DNA from: Thozetella sp. PMI_491
Taxonomy: Eukaryota > Ascomycota > Sordariomycetes > Chaetosphaeriales > Chaetosphaeriaceae
Reading direction: 5' to 3'
DNA: 64,000 nt
NCBI GenBank assembly: GCA_021432635.1
Contig: MU270040.1
Span: 132,323 to 196,322, forward strand
Position numbers and translations under genes: made by a program. Positions 1 through 11,812 of the stretch are shown in pieces. Below the pieces are notes generated by a model. That model saw only the letters and a program-made list of their open reading frames with translations, was not told where the DNA came from and did no database searches. Positions within the stretch are counted from its first letter, which is position 1; every line of letters starts with the position of its first letter.

Positions 1-656
1 GAATCTAGTTCAACCTCACCGCCGGGCATGTCGGGGGGGATCATAACCGGCAGCTTGCCCTCGTCCATTCTCTTCCCTGCCCCTTCTCCCACATCCCAGA
101 TGTCCGTCTCGTTAACGCGTAGGTCATAATTCCAGTCCTTAGATAGAATAGGAACATTGTCGCACATTCTTGATGTACTCCAGCCGTAGTACCCGGGCCT
201 ACCTTCCGAGCCCACCCAGACGTCAAAGCCGACGGTCTTCTCCCAATCCTTAATGAAGAGATATCCCGTCTTGGAGCCGCCGGTCGCCTTCTGCAGATGG
301 TACCAGAGTAGTTGAAACTCCCGTAGAGCGCAATTATTGTAGGAGGTGTACTCGCAGACGTAGGCGACGGCCCGTTCGTTGACCACGCACCGGATCTGGT
401 TTTGGAACCGGTTATCTCTCTCATGGCAAGCGTTTCTCGCTAGGCATACCATAGCCCTGTACAGGTCTTGGTCGTCCACGTTGTGGAAAGTGGGAACATT
501 TAGGGTCATTGGCAGTTCCGCCGGTGCGCGTATATCCAGGCTTTGAGAATGCGTTTCATTACCCAAGATCGTGCTGAGATTGAGGCCCTGCTCGGCAAGA
601 GGACTTGCTAGGCCTGCAGCCAAGAGGAATGAAATCCCAAAGACGTGGCGTAGCAT
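1..656 (-). CDS. Secreted Cys-containing protein, 3' end outside window
   Basis: I do not recognise a named family. The frame starts at an ATG at 656 and stays open for about 218 codons to the window edge, so the C-terminus is missing. The first ~18 residues (MLRHVFGISFLLAAGLAS) form a clear signal peptide. Two N-glycosylation sites (NLS, NET) follow. The mature part has at least six Cys in the segments MVCLARNAC, IRCVV, YVCEYT, NNCAL and SRMCDNV, which suggests disulfides and an extracellular role. No intron is needed. It lies on the same strand as the repeat precursor at 1325-1756 and points away from it. A small-secreted-protein or effector-like role is only inference. The call rests on the long open frame, the signal peptide and the Cys spacing. 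Confidence 0.7.
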   Translation of the reverse strand, partial: MLRHVFGISFLLAAGLASPLAEQGLNLSTILGNETHSQSLDIRAPAELPMTLNVPTFHNVDDQDLYRAMVCLARNACHERDNRFQNQIRCVVNERAVAYVCEYTSYNNCALREFQLLWYHLQKATGGSKTGYLFIKDWEKTVGFDVWVGSEGRPGYYGWSTSRMCDNVPILSKDWNYDLRVNETDIWDVGEGAGKRMDEGKLPVMIPPDMPGGEVELD

Positions 657-1324: not shown

Positions 1325-1756
1325 CTATAGAATCGCGTAGGCTGTGTCGGCCTTGCACAGAGGCCCCTGGCAGGGTTCTGGGGTGCGCTCCTTAAGAATT
1401 GCGTAAGCTGTGTCGGCCTTGCACAGAACACCTTGGCATGGCGCTGGCTCAGGGGTACGGTCCTTGAGGATAGCGTAGGCCGTGTCGGCCTTGCAAAGGG
1501 AGCCCTGGCATGGCTCTGGTTCCGGAGCACGCTCTTTTAGAATAGCGTAGGCAGTATCAGCCTTGCACAGAGAACCCTGGCAGGGCTCTGGGGTGCGCTC
1601 CTTGAGAATGGCGTAAGCCGTGTCGGCCTTGCAAAGGGATCCTTGGCAAGGCTCAGGGTTGCGCTCCTCAAGATTGGCGGGCGCGGCACCGGAAATAACA
1701 GGAGCGGCGACGGCGCCGAGCGCGAGGACGCTCGCGATGGCAAGAGAGAAACGCAT
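1325..1756 (-). CDS. Repeat-containing secreted peptide precursor, dikaritin (ustiloxin/phomopsin)-like RiPP candidate
   Basis: This 143-residue single-exon protein starts with a signal peptide (residues 1-18, MRFSLAIASVLALGAVAA). After a short spacer come five near-perfect tandem units of 22-24 residues, at about 33-51, 55-73, 77-97, 101-121 and 125-143. Each unit has a Pro/Glu-rich lead (PEP), a Cys pair (CQGxLC) and the invariant tail KADTAYAIL. Units are joined by KER or KDR, and the last ends at the stop. Known fungal dikaritin precursors have this design: signal peptide, then repeats each carrying a Tyr-containing core. The ustiloxin B core is YAIG, so YAI here matches three of four residues. 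The UstYa-like gene 1.3 kb away, divergently arranged, supports the call. What is odd: the linkers lack the dibasic KR usual for Kex2 cleavage, and each unit has a Cys pair not typical of dikaritins. The alternative is a pheromone-like or other repeat secreted peptide. Confidence 0.8.
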   Translation of the reverse strand: MRFSLAIASVLALGAVAAPVISGAAPANLEERNPEPCQGSLCKADTAYAILKERTPEPCQGSLCKADTAYAILKERAPEPEPCQGSLCKADTAYAILKDRTPEPAPCQGVLCKADTAYAILKERTPEPCQGPLCKADTAYAIL

Positions 1757-3053
1757 ATCTGGGCACTAGGCTCGATTAGCGCGCGTGCTGAAGCTACTGC
1801 AGAGGGCTGCTTCACTTACCAAGAGCGGTTGAGTGTATTCTGTGAGGAGAGTAGTCACTGTATCGACAGCCAAGAGCCAGGGGATGAGCCAAGCGCCCCT
1901 TTATACTACGCGTCCTTCACAGACGATATACTCAGAATGGGAGCCCGCGATGGCTTTCAGTTGATAACACGGGCCACTGTACAAGTCGACTGCCGCGGGT
2001 GTCCCTCTCTGGGACTTTCGTTCGACCATCGTCGAGCTTTCCAAAGATGGAAGGTCCTGTCAGTTCAAGAACCTCCAAGGCAAACAAGGACACCAGTGGG
2101 TATTGTGTCGGTTGACTGGGGCGTCTTTCAGTCGGACCCAAACAAGCCTTACATCCGATATGTCCCTGTGCGGCGTGGCAGGTTCCCTAGCCTAACTTCT
2201 ATGACGAATAGGCATCGACTCAGTTCCATCCGTAATGGCGGATCTACGTCCTTTCGGGTTTGGCTCACGGGGCAAGCGCTCGTTGGGCCGCCGCTGTGAA
2301 CATGATAGGATTGGATCGCGTGATAGCAACGCAGGTTGAAGTTTTAGTCTCAGCTTGCAGTTAGATCGTGTTTCGTTTGAGCACAGCCGGATATGGCAGG
2401 TGGTTTGCGCGATGGCCCCCCATCAAGAACAGAAGAATCCGCGGGCCTACCCAGAAAGGAACTCATGTTCGCCTAATAGATAGTTATTAATCTGTCGGCT
2501 TTGCTTCCATCAGCATACGAGTCGTCTCTAGCATGGCAACGCACCCCTGTGACTGGCGAGGCGTGTAGGCGCTAACCAGCCTGGACTGCAGCGAGATACA
2601 TACTACGTCCCTGCTAGCGCAAATATTCTGCGTACGCGTCCTTCCAGAACTCGACACTAGATAGCGCAAATTGGATCTATAGGCCTCTGACGCCACCGGC
2701 TGCGGTGGAGAGGCTGCATTCCTGATGTCAGGTGTTTGACGGAAGTTCGCGTAGCTCCCGCTTTAGCGCGAGTAAAGACCCATGTTCACGACTTACCCAT
2801 TATGCACCCTCCGTATTGTCTGCAAACCTGTTCGGTATGCCCCCACCCCCCAATGTTGATTTTCAAGTTGCTTCCATGTTAAGCACATTTCTTGTTTTGC
2901 TTTGGTCGTAGCTACCGTCTTTCTTCGACGAGCATACAGCCATCTCTTCACGTGCTGTTGCCTTCCCTTCCCTGGGTACATCTCCCCTTCGAGTGGAAGA
3001 AAAAAACCTCCCGTGCTCCATGTTCTGTGCTGTTCGCTTCCTGTACGTGAAGA
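1757..3053. other. Divergent intergenic region between the precursor and the UstYa-like gene
   Basis: About 1.3 kb separates the two genes, which are transcribed away from each other, so it may be a shared control region. Open frames here are shadows or lack any family signal. Confidence 0.5.
1900..1905 (-). promoter_or_regulatory. Possible TATA box of the repeat precursor gene
   Basis: Read on the minus strand the site is TATAAA followed by GGGG, about 145 bases upstream of the precursor ATG at 1756. Position and sequence suit a core promoter element; there is no further proof. Confidence 0.35.
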
Positions 3054-4107
3054 ATGGCTCCGTTCACCAGGAAAGACACAACCGAGTATAAGCGGCTCGC
3101 CGCCGACGATGACCTTAGCGACCGATTCTCCGACATCGAAGCTTCTACTGTCCCGTCGTCTCCAAGGCGATATTGGCCGTCTTGGAAGCAGTTAGTTGGT
3201 ATAACCGTGGTGCAAATACTGCTCTTTTCAGCATACACCTATACTCTCTTCAGAATCTTCCCGCTTGGCGCCTCGTGCAGCAGGGGGCCGCAAGATGTTG
3301 TAGCTTGTAAGCTCATACTGGCCCACGCTCTCATGTCCAAGTGTCCTGGATTCTAACCTGTATCCCTCGTTTGACAGCCCCCGCATCTAGTGTCATTCGG
3401 TGGGAGCTCCAGATTCTCGACACGCGCGTGGTACAACAGAACAGATTTAATGCCGAGCCGTCCGATGAGGTCGACGAGGCGTGGGCTGAGTTGATATACC
3501 GTAAGTCGAGACGGGTCATTCAGTCATTCATTCCATCAAGACACGCTTGCTAATCACGATTGCAGTCAGCAACGTTAAGGTCTCAGCGGAGGATGTGCGG
3601 GCGATCAACAAGACTTCGATCGAGATCCCGACTGATCCCGGCATGGTGTGGGCGACTCTTGGGGTGAACCACGAGCTCCACTGTCTGGACCGGCTGCGGC
3701 AGGCCATCCACCCCGACTTCTACTTCCCCGACTGGACCCCAGAGGAGAGGAAGCGGAACCAGATGCACTCGAGGCATTGTATCGACTACCTCCGCCAGGC
3801 CGCCATGTGCCACGGCGACCTGTCGCTCACGACTTACTACTGGGCAGAGGATAGCGCAATCCCCATTGCTGACTTCGACACGCCTCACGCCTGCGTAAAC
3901 TGGGATGCAATACAGAAATGGGAGGAGGAGAGGGTGTTCCGCCCGCTCACGCCAGGACTGCTGATGCATCCCAAATTCGGTGAGTCCTAACAAGCCGCGT
4001 GTCTTGTCCGGCTGCCATGTTGTCGTCCTCTAACGCTGCACTTAGGAGCTGCATTTCCTGAAGGCGAGGGTGACAAAATTGGCGTCCTCCCCGACCATCA
4101 TTCATAA
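3054..4107 (+). CDS. UstYa family (DUF3328) oxidase, RiPP-tailoring type
   Basis: Predicted exons are 3054-3306, 3378-3500, 3566-3979 and 4046-4107, which join in frame to 283 residues. The N-terminus is cytosolic and charged. One membrane segment at about residues 47-66 (VGITVVQILLFSAYTYTLF) makes it a type II membrane protein, as is usual for the family. The two signature motifs are both present: HELHC at about 161-165 and HC followed by IDYLRQ at about 196-203, then MCHGD. UstYa proteins catalyse oxidative cyclisation of fungal ribosomal peptides such as ustiloxins and asperipin, and also act in other pathways. Its place beside a Tyr-containing repeat precursor points to macrocyclisation of that peptide, probably through Tyr. 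Only one UstYa homologue is visible here, whereas ustiloxin-type clusters usually have two. Confidence 0.92.
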
Positions 4108-4560
4108 GCCGTGGAAGGTCTCGGGGTTAAGTGGACGAGCTGCAGGCGTGGCGCGAAGGTGTATTGTTGATTACTGCTCCTTAAGAGTCGGCCAAATGGG
4201 ATAGGCTGTGGCCAATCACGCCATCAATCCCGTGCAAGAAATCCTACCTGCCGCTACGCCCTTTGTGGCGGGTCAATGAACATGGCCTTGCCTGTTCGCT
4301 CGGCGCGTTTGCCGGCTGCATAGCCAGTACCTGCCTGGCCGCATAACTGTGAGTGGCGAGATCGGGGAATAAATGACCCAACGGTACTATTAGTAATAGC
4401 TGGATGATGGTGTGGTCTCCAACAAGAGCCATGGATATTTAAGCGCGGTTCTCCACCCCACGATCGAGCGCCGACTCAAGCCGTAGTGCACGAAAGAGAA
4501 ATTACCTTGACTCGACTGTGGAACCGCCTCATTGACTCCGTGTGTGCTCTGTGAGAGATC
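4108..4560. other. Intergenic, promoter of the AsaB/CmcJ-like gene
   Basis: The genes on both sides are on the plus strand. I see no coding signal. The short AT-rich stretch at about 4385-4400 is the only notable composition change. Confidence 0.5.
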
Positions 4561-5525
4561 ATGACCGCCGCCGTATTTCGATACCTGGACCCTGCGACCG
4601 TCGACGTCGACGTCGCCAAGGCATGGGCTAAGGTCGACACTGACGCTACCTCGTACAAGCGTACGGAGCGGACGCTGCCCGTCGCCAACTTCCGCGATAC
4701 CCCTGACGCCTTCGGGACCGACGTTTCCGGGTTCGCCGTCTACCGCTCGCCGGCCCAAGAGAAGGCGTTTGCCGACGAAGACACGGTCCGCAACGGCTAC
4801 TACGCCGAGGTGGAGGCGCTGCTGCGCGAGAAGCTGCCCGGCGTCAAGAAGGTCGTCATCTTCGACCACACCATCCGCAAAAACAGCCCGCAGGCGGCGC
4901 GCCAGCCCGTGCAGCAGGTGCACGTGGACCAGACTCCGAAGGCGGCTGAGGCGCGCGTGCGGCGACACCTGCCGGCCGACGAGGCGGACGCCCTGCTCCG
5001 CGGGCGGTACCAGATCATCAATGTGTGGCGGCCCATCTCGCACCCGGCGTCCGACTTCCCGCTCGCGGTTGTGGATTGGAGGACTATCTCGCCCGAGGAC
5101 CTTGTGCCGGTGAGCCTACTGTATCCAGTGCGGGACCGCACGCACGACGACGACGACCGGGGGAAGGAGGTTCTGCCGGACCCGTCCCAGGTGACATCGA
5201 CGGAGGGGTATGAGGTCAAAGGTAAGGACACTGCCTGCCCCCAGTCCCGTGCCGGAGGTTGACGGGCCGTGGCACAACAGGCGAGACATACGGCATCCTA
5301 CCTAGTGAGAAGCATAAACTCTATTACGTTAAGGACATGACACCCGACGAGGTGATGTTTATCAAATGCTTCGACTCCCGGAGCCAGGGGCAGCCATCGG
5401 GACGGGCGGGGGTGGCGGCACTCACTCCGCACACGGCCTTCGTGGACCCCAGCACGCCGGCCGGCGCGAAAGGGCGGGAGAGCATCGAGGTTCGGTGTCT
5501 AGTGTTCTACGAAGATGGCATGTGA
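4561..5525 (+). CDS. AsaB/CmcJ-like putative 2-oxoglutarate/Fe(II) oxygenase
   Basis: Two exons, 4561-5221 and 5281-5525, join in frame (AAA G|GC) to 301 residues. The protein resembles the fungal GA4-desaturase/CmcJ/AsaB-like family, often annotated as 7alpha-cephem-methoxylase P8-like. Supporting segments are the N-terminal FRYLDP, the central HVDQTP with an H-x-D pair that could bind iron, then INVWRP and PLAVVDWRT. The late segment TPHTAFVDP plus RESIEVR supplies a possible distal His and a 2-oxoglutarate-binding Arg. No signal peptide or membrane segment is seen, so it is probably cytosolic. Family members hydroxylate or desaturate secondary metabolites, and some are annotated as methyltransferases. 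It directly follows the UstYa gene on the same strand, which suggests tailoring in the same pathway, though that link is inferred. Confidence 0.85.
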
Positions 5526-9202: not shown

Positions 9203-9781
9203 TCAATGGCCCTCCGAGAAGCAGCACCCCTTGTTGTCTGAGAAGCAGCAGGCCTCGTGGTCAGAGAAGCAACAGGCCTTGTTATCGGACCAGCAGCACG
9301 CAGCATGATCGGACCAGCAGCACGCTTCATTGTCGGAGAAGCAGCACCCGCCCATGGTGGAGAAGCAGCACCCGCCCGTGGTGCTGAAGCAGCAGCCGGG
9401 CGAGCTCAAGAGTCTCTCCCGCACCTTGGGGTCCATTTCATACGACATTTTGTTCTGCTGGGAGCTGTATGGGCGCGTCTCGACACCTGAGGCCCTAGTT
9501 GTCGACGTCTGCAGCGGAACGTCGGAGCCGGCAGCGCTCGAGTCGGAACTGGGTGTCGTTGAGGGCGCCTGGGCGACGGTTGAGGGCGGCGTCACAATGC
9601 CGGCTGAGGACGAGGCGACAGTGTGGGCGCCGCCGGCGCGGCTTGGGGTTTGTTGCGATGCCTCGTACGAAGGGGGAGCGTCGAGCTCATCCTCGCTCAG
9701 CACGGCCTGCTGGTGCCCCGCATACGATGGCTGGACCCTCGGCGAGAGGGAGTCGCCCTTGGTGAAATCGTCGGAGTTCAT
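9203..9781 (-). CDS. Protein with C-terminal CC(F/W)S octapeptide repeats
   Basis: This single-exon protein has 192 residues. The N-terminal two thirds are low-complexity, rich in Ser, Thr, Ala and Pro, with a PPSYEAS motif that resembles a PY motif for WW-domain ubiquitin ligases. A short basic/acidic segment (MDPKVRERLLSSPG) then leads into eight consecutive units of eight residues. Each begins CC followed by F or W and S, and most continue with D and N or H. They run from about residue 130 to the stop (7 full units plus one short). This gives 16 Cys in ~63 residues, always as adjacent pairs. No signal peptide or membrane segment is visible. The function is unknown. Metal binding, dense palmitoylation of a cytosolic tail or disulfide cross-linking are possibilities only. 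The frame is certain because the repeat keeps its period to the stop. Confidence 0.8.
   Translation of the reverse strand: MNSDDFTKGDSLSPRVQPSYAGHQQAVLSEDELDAPPSYEASQQTPSRAGGAHTVASSSAGIVTPPSTVAQAPSTTPSSDSSAAGSDVPLQTSTTRASGVETRPYSSQQNKMSYEMDPKVRERLLSSPGCCFSTTGGCCFSTMGGCCFSDNEACCWSDHAACCWSDNKACCFSDHEACCFSDNKGCCFSEGH
9206..9394 (-). repeat. 24-base coding tandem repeat (CC(F/W)S units)
   Basis: Eight units with a 24-base period encode the Cys-pair octapeptides at the C-terminus of the protein on the minus strand. Unit sequences differ mainly in codons 5-8, which suggests expansion by duplication with selection on the CC-aromatic-S part. Confidence 0.85.
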
Positions 9782-11083
9782 CCTGGTTGCGGGGCAACGT
9801 TCGTTCGATAGGCTCGCTCAAACTCAATCTCAAACTCAATCTCTCAGATTCGCCAGCGGCAGGGAAAGTGTGCTCGGCGACGGCGATGGCAAATGGCAGG
9901 TTTTGGAGCAGTTTTCAGGTGTAAAATAGCAAGACGTCGGCGTCGTGGAATTGGGGTCGGAGGGAGCCCTCTTTAGGGCTGCAGTCCAACGGTCGAAAGG
10001 CCTCGTCAGCTCAGACAAGTCCATTGAGCGCTCTGGGAGCATGCGTGGATGTGGCGCATTTCGGCCAATCCGGACGCCGCATCACCAATTCGTCTCCTGA
10101 GGGAGCGAGCCGACTGGTATCCTGGAGGGTGTGGGGGCCATTGGCTGTCTGTCGAGTCTGGCCATATAGCCTGACGCTAGACGACACTGGGGATGATGAA
10201 CCACGCGTTATCGGTCTCGTCGGATTGCGGCCCAGGGCTAGGGGAGACGTAAGGCGGCTTGGCGCAATCGCCCCCCTGCTGTAGCACCCAGGGACGGTTT
10301 ACCCCCGCGCGAGGGGCATAGCTCCGATGTGCCCCTTGAAGTTCGCATACTGAGCAATCACCATGCCCCTAGCCAAGCCCCGAGCAGACATAACAATCAC
10401 TCGTAGCACAGAGTTTGGTGCCGTGACTCAATAGGTGCCGATTCGTACCTTAGTCTACGTAGCATCTCGGTCCATGGATCTACGTCATCTTCGATCTGGC
10501 TGCCCCGGATCATAACTTCAGCCACCAGCCACCACGCGGCGGCCGCCTCTCCCCAGAGCCGTCTCCTTTTTGTCGCTCATTCAGGATGAATTGCGGCGCA
10601 GGGTGCCAGGGAGGTAAACGCCAACCTCTCCTTTGTTTACTCATGGCTTGTAGGGCGTCCTGGAGGAAGTGGCCCGCAAAGTCGGCAGCAAGCCCGGCCG
10701 GACACCTAGTGGAACCCCCGGCCCCCACGCGCTGCCCTAAGGGTCTAAGGCAATATGACAACGGCAGGGCGCGATAGTTTTACCCGTGCTCCTTTCGGTC
10801 GCAAAGTGTTGCCAACCGTCCGATGCACCGGCCCGGGAGCGTGGGCCTTCTCGGACATTCGACGGAACCGGGCCACTCTCGGAGCAGTAGCGTCAGTTTA
10901 GCGCCCGAGAGCCGCTCCATAACCCCTCAGCCGCGCATTCCACAGCCCGTAGCCGGCCGCATAAAGTCTATTGGACCCCGACTCCGGCACGAGAGCGGCT
11001 TCGTAGCGGTCTATCTCATCCCATACCCCGACGTCGTTCAATACCAGCTCCAGTCGCTCTTGCGCCGCCCGACCACATTCATC
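9782..11083. other. Intergenic, no gene seen
   Basis: About 1.3 kb between the divergent Cys-rich gene and the acetyltransferase gene. The acetyltransferase frame is open upstream to 10823, but the stretch before 11084 has no conserved character and is more likely 5' leader. Confidence 0.5.
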
Positions 11084-11812
11084 ATGGCCACAGCCTCTGA
11101 GCAGCATGCAGTGACCGACCCCAACTCAGGCCTCCTAGTCGGAGCGCCGATCGGTGGTCCCGCTGCCTCAGCCCCAGTTCACACAGAACTCAAGGGGCGC
11201 CTCATCACCATCGTGCCCGTTGACCCCGAAGCCCATAGCAAGGTACTCTTCGAGACCACCTCGTCGGGCCCCCAGAAGTACAAGCTCTGGCAGTACATGA
11301 TGGATGGACCCTGGGACACCTGGGAGGCATTCCACCAGAGTTTGGTCGCCAAGAAGGCTTCCACGGACCCGTTGTATTTTACAGTGGTCTCGAACGAGAC
11401 GGGGCAGCCGCTTGGGCTAACCAGCTACCTCAACATCCGGCCAGCCCACGGCGTAATCGAGGTGGGGAGCCTTCTGTTCTCTCCTGCCTTGCAGCGGACA
11501 TCCGGCGCGACCGAGGCCATGTATCTCATGATGAAGCACGCCTTCGAGGACCTGCACTACAGGCGGTACGAGTGGAAGGCCAACTCGCTGAACAAGCCCT
11601 CCCTCAAGGCGGCCGAGCGCCTGGGATTCGTGTACGAGGGCACCTTCCGCAACCACATGATTATCAAGGGCCACAACCGCGACACGACATGGTTCTCCAT
11701 CACGGACGCCGAGTGGCCGGAAAGGAAGCGCGCACTGGAGGAGTACCTGGGCGCTGAGAACTTCGACGAGAATGGACAGCAGCGCCAGCCGCTGCGCCGG
11801 AGAGAGGCATAA
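11084..11812 (+). CDS. GNAT-family N-acetyltransferase (RimJ/RimL type)
   Basis: A single exon of 242 residues from the ATG at 11084. I preferred this start because the in-frame sequence upstream (to 10823) is low-complexity and the family begins near here. The body shows the RimL-type layout: ELKGRLITIVPVDPEAH, an early strand; PLYFTVVSNETGQPLGLTSYLN, the central sheet; GVIEVGSLLFSPALQRTSGATEA, the acetyl-CoA pyrophosphate-binding turn; and YEWKANSLNKPSLKAAERLGF with EGTFRNHMIIKG near the end. These proteins transfer acetyl from acetyl-CoA to an amine of a peptide N-terminus or small molecule; the substrate cannot be read from sequence. It is probably cytosolic. It lies about 5.5 kb from the RiPP-like locus with two unrelated genes between, so a role there is only speculative. 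Confidence 0.9.
   Translation: MATASEQHAVTDPNSGLLVGAPIGGPAASAPVHTELKGRLITIVPVDPEAHSKVLFETTSSGPQKYKLWQYMMDGPWDTWEAFHQSLVAKKASTDPLYFTVVSNETGQPLGLTSYLNIRPAHGVIEVGSLLFSPALQRTSGATEAMYLMMKHAFEDLHYRRYEWKANSLNKPSLKAAERLGFVYEGTFRNHMIIKGHNRDTTWFSITDAEWPERKRALEEYLGAENFDENGQQRQPLRRREA

Follow-up and report, generated by a model that had tools for sequence, protein, structure and literature searches.

A repeat precursor with alpha-pheromone-like spacers beside a UstYa gene in Thozetella sp. PMI_491, a candidate dikaritin-type peptide locus

We analysed a 64,000-nucleotide stretch of the genome of Thozetella sp. PMI_491 (hereafter the window; G000:C26:132323-196322, contig MU270040.1, GC content 0.55), which belongs to an assembly of 72.3 Mb in 157 contigs. 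Within positions 1325-5525, the window carries a repeat precursor gene on the minus strand and, on the plus strand, a UstYa/DUF3328 gene and a gene for a CmcJ/NvfI/AsaB-family oxygenase, all at the positions assigned to them in an earlier note on this DNA (Table 1). The precursor and UstYa genes are divergent, with start codons 1.3 kb apart, and their predicted products probably constitute a secretory-pathway unit for a ribosomally synthesized and post-translationally modified peptide (RiPP) of the dikaritin type, combined with a Cys pair and pheromone-style trimming.

A constrained Cys-containing core in the repeat precursor

The conserved unit of the precursor is a 15-residue core, C-x4-C-KADTAYAIL, present in each of five copies (Tandem Repeats Finder scores 330-362), and the protein terminates exactly at core 5, without any tail. 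The earlier note had described a signal peptide followed by five tandem units ending in KADTAYAIL. The repeats are indeed found at five positions, and the signal peptide is predicted from hydropathy (mean 2.52 over a hydrophobic 12-mer at residues 5-16). Ahead of each core stands an Arg (LEER, KER, KER, KDR and KER, in order), followed by a run of whole X-Pro dipeptides (12/12 pairs); spacer length varies by whole dipeptides, and the cores are fixed. XP or XA dipeptides behind an endoprotease site are the signature of STE13 (PMC6339444; PMC9769878), and this alpha-pheromone-type signature is present in the precursor.

The amino acids of the core appear to be held while the DNA drifts, because synonymous changes far outnumber non-synonymous ones. 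Pairwise comparison of the full cores gave 70 synonymous changes over 110 sites against 11 non-synonymous changes over 340 sites (pS 0.64, pN 0.03; Nei-Gojobori), and within the CKADTAYAIL segment of the five copies all 43 pairwise differences were synonymous and 0 non-synonymous, all from comparisons that are not independent of one another. A recent duplication of the array was considered and not adopted, as synonymous divergence between copies is high. The whole precursor protein is encoded in single copy, and a DNA pattern for AD-x-AYAI occurs 5 times in the 72.3 Mb, always in the precursor, against 0 occurrences of the reversed control pattern. A canonical 61-nt intron can be read in the leader just upstream of the precursor ATG (the spliced leader has one ATG, 212 nt upstream), which supports, as far as sequence goes, the view that the precursor is a transcribed gene.

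A search of 5.8 billion proteins returned one relative of the precursor at E <= 0.01 (P0001; 86 aa, E = 3.8e-12), and a two-sequence profile search at E <= 10 recovered P0001 alone and added nothing. The same protein set yielded few candidates for the large UstYa family, suggesting thin coverage of fungi in that set or by its word filter, so a single relative is weak evidence of rarity. P0001 has a leader in common with the precursor (MRFSLA...LALGA...APVI) and two cores, one directly after LHER and the other after six dipeptides, all X-Pro (6/6); KR and KK stand directly after its cores. The seven cores of the two proteins (five from the window, two from P0001) give the consensus C[NQ][GST][IPSV][AKL]C[AKR]AD[ST]AYAI[FL]. 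Both Cys, AD and AYAI are thus kept between the proteins although their spacers differ, and Y-x-I is retained in 7/7 cores. The Tyr-Ala-Ile part of the core pointed out in the earlier note stands, and the delimitation of the core as YAIL is ruled out, since the conserved 15-residue unit begins at Cys in 7/7 cores, opens with C-x4-C and is bounded by X-Pro. That note had passed over the Cys pair, the X-Pro spacers, the missing dibasic sites, the 5′ intron and the large number of UstYa genes in the genome.

Table 1 Features of the precursor, UstYa and oxygenase genes in the window
Feature	Position	Strand	Basis or remark
Precursor coding sequence (143 aa) with a signal-like N-terminus, a short leader that ends in LEER, and five cores	1325..1756	-	Open reading frame, repeat analysis
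Probable signal peptide, about aa 1-18	1703..1756	-	Hydropathy; similar N-terminus in P0001
Core 1 CQGSLCKADTAYAIL, after LEER-NPEP	1604..1648	-	aa 37-51
Core 2 CQGSLCKADTAYAIL, after KER-TPEP	1538..1582	-	aa 59-73
Core 3 CQGSLCKADTAYAIL, after KER-APEPEP	1466..1510	-	aa 83-97
Core 4 CQGVLCKADTAYAIL, after KDR-TPEPAP	1394..1438	-	aa 107-121
Core 5 CQGPLCKADTAYAIL, after KER-TPEP	1328..1372	-	aa 129-143
Candidate 5′-leader intron, 61 nt, GTAAGT...CTAAT...CAG	1759..1819	-	Sequence only
UstYa exon 1, N-terminus and membrane helix aa 47-65	3054..3306	+	Splice model, hydropathy
UstYa exon 2	3378..3500	+	Splice model
UstYa exon 3, HELHC and HSRHC	3566..3979	+	PF11807, motifs
UstYa exon 4, C-terminus AAFPEGEGDKIGVLPDHHS and stop (4105-4107)	4046..4107	+	Intron 3980-4045 GTGAGT...TAG; C-terminus like P0005
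CmcJ/NvfI/AsaB-family oxygenase exon 1, HVD at aa 121-123	4561..5221	+	Profile, alignment
Oxygenase exon 2, carrying the distal His and the Arg that align with those of NvfI	5281..5525	+	Alignment

The UstYa partner and the proposed pathway

The earlier note had paired the precursor divergently with a UstYa protein carrying both His motifs, and the gene bears this out: its product matches PF11807 (E = 1.4e-53 for a three-exon, 266-aa model) and contains two HxxHC motifs. Exon borders throughout are GT...AG models selected by reading frame. We prefer a four-exon UstYa model of 283 aa, since the C-terminus that it gives (KFGAAFPEGEGDKIGVLPD) agrees with the one found in a Nemania relative, P0005; this model replaces the three-exon one, in which the third intron is read through to a stop at 3990. 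HELHC (at 161) and HSRHC (at 193) occur in both models. UstYa/DUF3328 proteins are described as lumenal, membrane-anchored binuclear copper enzymes with the motif HxxHC(x)nHxxHC (PMC12435403), and the window protein, which displays this motif and a predicted membrane helix, is a putative copper enzyme. In its motif and its predicted single membrane helix with a lumenal C-terminal domain it is comparable to the copper-dependent DUF3328 hydroxylase CctR, the substrate of which is, unlike that proposed here, a non-ribosomal cyclic peptide (PMC12435403).

Exon 3 shares 57-63% identity with 5 proteins from outside this genome (5 of 9 candidates in the outside search, at E <= 1e-10), including a protein of Nemania serpens (Xylariaceae), and 40-41% with the best paralogs in its own genome that have near-full-length matches. 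Being closer to outside proteins than to its paralogs, the window UstYa appears to belong to a distinct subfamily. A scan of viral contigs for UstYa found no relative.

UstYa genes are greatly expanded in this genome. With 150 of 203 candidates scored, we found at least 149 exon matches to PF11807, which merge (<= 1.2 kb) to about 117 gene-level loci. Of the genome, only 0.82% falls within 2.5 kb of any of these 149 scored matches. This small share, the constraint on the core and the single-site occurrence of its pattern indicate that the observed locus is more than chance.

Other UstYa neighbourhoods were scanned for repeated 5-mers in stop-to-stop open reading frames, with likeness to Kex2-processed repeat proteins (KEPs) judged by eye; the scan covered 20 of 102 neighbourhoods (10 kb each) in 18 clusters, a non-random choice of contigs with the strongest matches. 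Seven other secreted-type repeat precursors, with different cores, emerged in 6/18 clusters (L024, L025, L028, L029, L031, L038 and L040), and X-Pro follows KR in 2/7 of them (L024 and L038). Among the clusters examined, UstYa-linked repeat precursors are therefore common, and the X-Pro trimming signature also occurs outside the window. Set aside in the scan were a 590-aa LATAGLG-repeat reading frame in L030, out-of-frame mirror reading frames and other non-KEP repeats. For comparison, 22% of KEPs have a DUF3328 neighbour (PMC7329392). The UstYa-linked L024 precursor (L024:3272-3655, contig C84) repeats the core GTYGVDTFGAI after KR or KER followed by EP, DP or DPEP; the boundary is KER in 1/9 cases and KR in the other 8, and X-Pro follows all 9. 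The UstYa-linked L038 precursor (L038:7119-7862, contig C15) intersperses two cores, with two copies of AEYTFSTLKIIGKDGAEV and four resembling QYTSPNALRLKEK, each after EKR-EP.

In the pathway that we propose for the window, a Golgi endoprotease would cleave behind the Arg of LEER, KER or KDR, a STE13-type dipeptidyl aminopeptidase would strip the X-Pro pairs so that Cys becomes the N-terminal residue, and the tail at the C-terminus would be trimmed. As in ustiloxin and phomopsin, the lumenal copper UstYa would link the ring oxygen of Tyr with the beta-carbon of Ile, the second residue after it, and the two Cys (Cys1-Cys6) would close a small disulfide ring. We infer both the Tyr-O-Ile ether and the disulfide from the Y-A-I segment and Cys pair of the core and from the motifs and helix of UstYa. 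The pathway would yield a peptide of about 15 residues with two rings, or the C-terminal part of that peptide, on which the 2-oxoglutarate (2OG) oxygenase may act after release to the cytosol, unless that enzyme is an unrelated neighbour.

This proposal is modelled on the dikaritins. The side chains of Tyr and Ile are linked to each other in ustiloxins (YAIG, YVIG) and in phomopsin (YVIP), and both residues are conserved in KEP type G-10 (PMC7329392); the resemblance of Tyr-Ala-Ile to ustiloxin that had been remarked on earlier thus concerns the very residues that are joined. With ustiloxin B, phomopsin and Neurospora crassa POI2 (KEP G-10), the window system has in common a predicted signal-like N-terminus, tandem cores, a UstYa neighbour and Tyr-x-Ile. 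Dikaritin precursors are expected to have three or more tandem repeats; the window precursor has five and P0001 two. Unlike the ustiloxin/phomopsin type (ED-Y-x-I-G/P), the window core reads C-x4-C...AYAIL/F with a Cys pair and X-Pro spacers, and the locus has a single UstYa. Just one UstYa also serves the asperipin-2a pathway (PMC7329392), the core of which differs and which includes a reductase (PMC12048977). A ustiloxin-like RiPP cluster is described in some Hypoxylaceae (PMC8403587), so that clusters broadly of this type already have precedent in related fungi.

Points against the proposal and competing readings

Several observations weigh against a dikaritin-type assignment. PMC6339444 reports no STE13 signature in the precursors of epichloecyclins or in those of toxic cyclic tetrapeptides (ustiloxin/phomopsin type), which would set the precursor apart from that class. 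Tyr in the window core is preceded by DTA, whereas the ustiloxin/phomopsin motif EDYXI has ED in this place (PMC6339444). Ustiloxin and phomopsin need a tyrosinase (PMC7329392), and 0 of 80 PF00264 matches lie on contig C26. The whole window precursor contains zero KR, KK, RK or RR sites. After cleavage at KER a carboxypeptidase would face R and then E, and the proposal offers no ready route for trimming the K-E part of the LKE tail. Finally, conserved synteny was not seen: none of the 5 outside UstYa matches has a contig of the same length as that of P0001 (4.1 kb). By sequence, then, the precursor lacks both the dibasic sites of KEPs and the EDYXI context, yet resembles a dikaritin-type precursor with its UstYa.

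Some of these points are eased by other loci and by published counts. KEPs are defined and screened for by cores between the Kex2 sites KR, KK, RK or RR (PMC7329392), so the published screen would miss this precursor. The single KER among the KR boundaries of the UstYa-linked L024 precursor suggests that KER can serve as a boundary. The split between STE13-type and UstYa-linked precursors is already not strict, since a DUF3328 gene lies near 17/76 KEPs related to putative Basidiomycota pheromones and two genes away from a Ccg-4 homologue of Rutstroemia (PMC7329392). Among the literature matches listed (open-licence papers, searched by titles and abstract starts), none combined UstYa-type peptides with STE13 or a disulfide.

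The earlier note had read the three genes as one minimal pathway, in which UstYa would crosslink the peptide and the oxygenase would then hydroxylate or desaturate it. This reading is doubtful. Its description of an AsaB/CmcJ-like oxygenase beside UstYa was accurate: the spliced 301-aa product matches the Fe(II)/2-oxoglutarate family NF041278 (CmcJ_NvfI_EfuI; E = 6.6e-72, 242 bits against a cut-off of 80) and resembles NvfI, CmcJ and AsaB in sequence, with the HxD...H...R residues aligned to those of the solved NvfI structure (7de2; E about 1e-28). The gene also starts close behind UstYa on the same strand (453 bp past the stop in the four-exon model, 570 bp in the three-exon model). The precursor, however, would be separated from this enzyme by a membrane, as hydropathy revealed no secretion or membrane segment in the oxygenase (maximum 0.69 over 19 residues). 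The family is present at about 13 loci in this genome (25 exon matches, grouped by hand). The window locus alone has a scored UstYa match nearby (at 643 bp); for the other 12/13 loci no such match lies closer than 50 kb, the shortest distance being 52 kb. Nor did any of the literature matches listed pair UstYa, DUF3328 or dikaritin with AsaB, CmcJ, NvfI or 2OG. Known NvfI, CmcJ and AsaB members act on small molecules, and the window enzyme may act on product that has returned to the cytosol, as cytosolic enzymes of ustiloxin biosynthesis probably do, or be a bystander. The three-gene minimal pathway is not supported, and the case for the oxygenase as a pathway member is weak.

A second reading, which we consider unlikely, is that the cores are released by the endoprotease and STE13 as linear disulfide-linked signalling peptides, pheromone- or hormone-like, with no crosslink and a coincidental UstYa neighbour. 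The processing signature speaks for it: STE13 sites are typical of alpha-pheromones, and KEPs carrying one are peptide hormone candidates (PMC6339444), in contrast to the cyclic tetrapeptide and epichloecyclin precursors. Like Ascomycete alpha-pheromone precursors of the Ccg-4 type, the window precursor combines repeats, an X-Pro/X-Ala trimming signature and two Cys per peptide, the last as in Sordariomycetes. Sordariomycete alpha-pheromone peptides follow the pattern W-C-x6-C-W, whereas the window core has C-x4-C without flanking Trp and ends in Tyr-x-Ile, and its precursor lacks KR and adjoins a UstYa gene. A W-C-x6-C-W gene is present on another contig (C21:364918-365463), with four WCQIRGQSCW copies, two after X-A or X-P pairs and two directly after KR; the identification of the precursor as the alpha-pheromone gene is thereby ruled out. 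A coincidental neighbour also sits poorly with the small share of the genome near a scored UstYa match, and an uncrosslinked product with the retention of Y-x-I in all seven cores. Moreover, L024 has both X-Pro behind every boundary and a UstYa link, so trimming and UstYa linkage are not exclusive in this genome. The KEPs related to Basidiomycota pheromones, compared here by description, have STE13-type dipeptides in common with the precursor but relate to Basidiomycota proteins and are Kex2-dibasic by definition.

That the repeat protein stays unprocessed, as a cysteine-rich secreted structural protein or effector, is very improbable: the missing dibasic site and the ten Cys of its secreted part would suit such a protein, but spacers that vary by whole X-Pro dipeptides between fixed cores, and the KR and KK behind the cores of P0001, point to processing.

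Returning to the RiPP unit of precursor and UstYa, we tentatively raise the less likely possibility that it stands for a distinct class of ascomycete peptides that are modified by UstYa and mature in the manner of alpha-pheromones, with cleavage at KER, KDR or EER in place of dibasic sites, STE13 trimming, an N-terminal Cys-x4-Cys ring and a C-terminal Tyr-x-Ile ether ring, possibly acting as a hormone and not as a toxin. Screens that depend on dibasic sites would fail to detect such a class; L024 and L038, which have KR, share the X-Pro signature. The precursor joins STE13 and UstYa-linked signatures that are kept apart in PMC6339444, and does so without a dibasic site and with a conserved Cys pair. 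If the product is crosslinked, mining rules based on KR, KK, RK or RR overlook part of the UstYa peptide repertoire, and a role of UstYa peptides as developmental signals, an idea raised for POI2 (PMC7329392), becomes directly testable.

Neighbouring genes and other observations

Elsewhere in the genome, one UstYa match is only ~0.9 kb from a tyrosinase match (C38:411322-413274), a partner pair known from ustiloxin and phomopsin. A wider cluster, extending to the left of the precursor, was considered and may exist. This flank carries genes for a P450 (L010:2042-3265; distance to the precursor ~7.4 kb) and for a GH11 xylanase (L010:8302-9271), and no other RiPP-type enzymes were found among the five left-flank reading frames scanned and in the left neighbour. 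To the right, 5.3 kb from the oxygenase, a GNAT acetyltransferase is encoded at 10823-11812 (+). In lichens, N-acetyltransferases have come up in connection with UstYa clusters (PMC12048977). At the window edge, which cuts the gene, positions 3-656 (-) encode a secreted-type protein with no Pfam match, on the same strand as the precursor and in tandem with it. A further protein with no Pfam match, encoded at 9203-9781 (-), ends in eight tandem C-terminal units with CC-[FW]-S.

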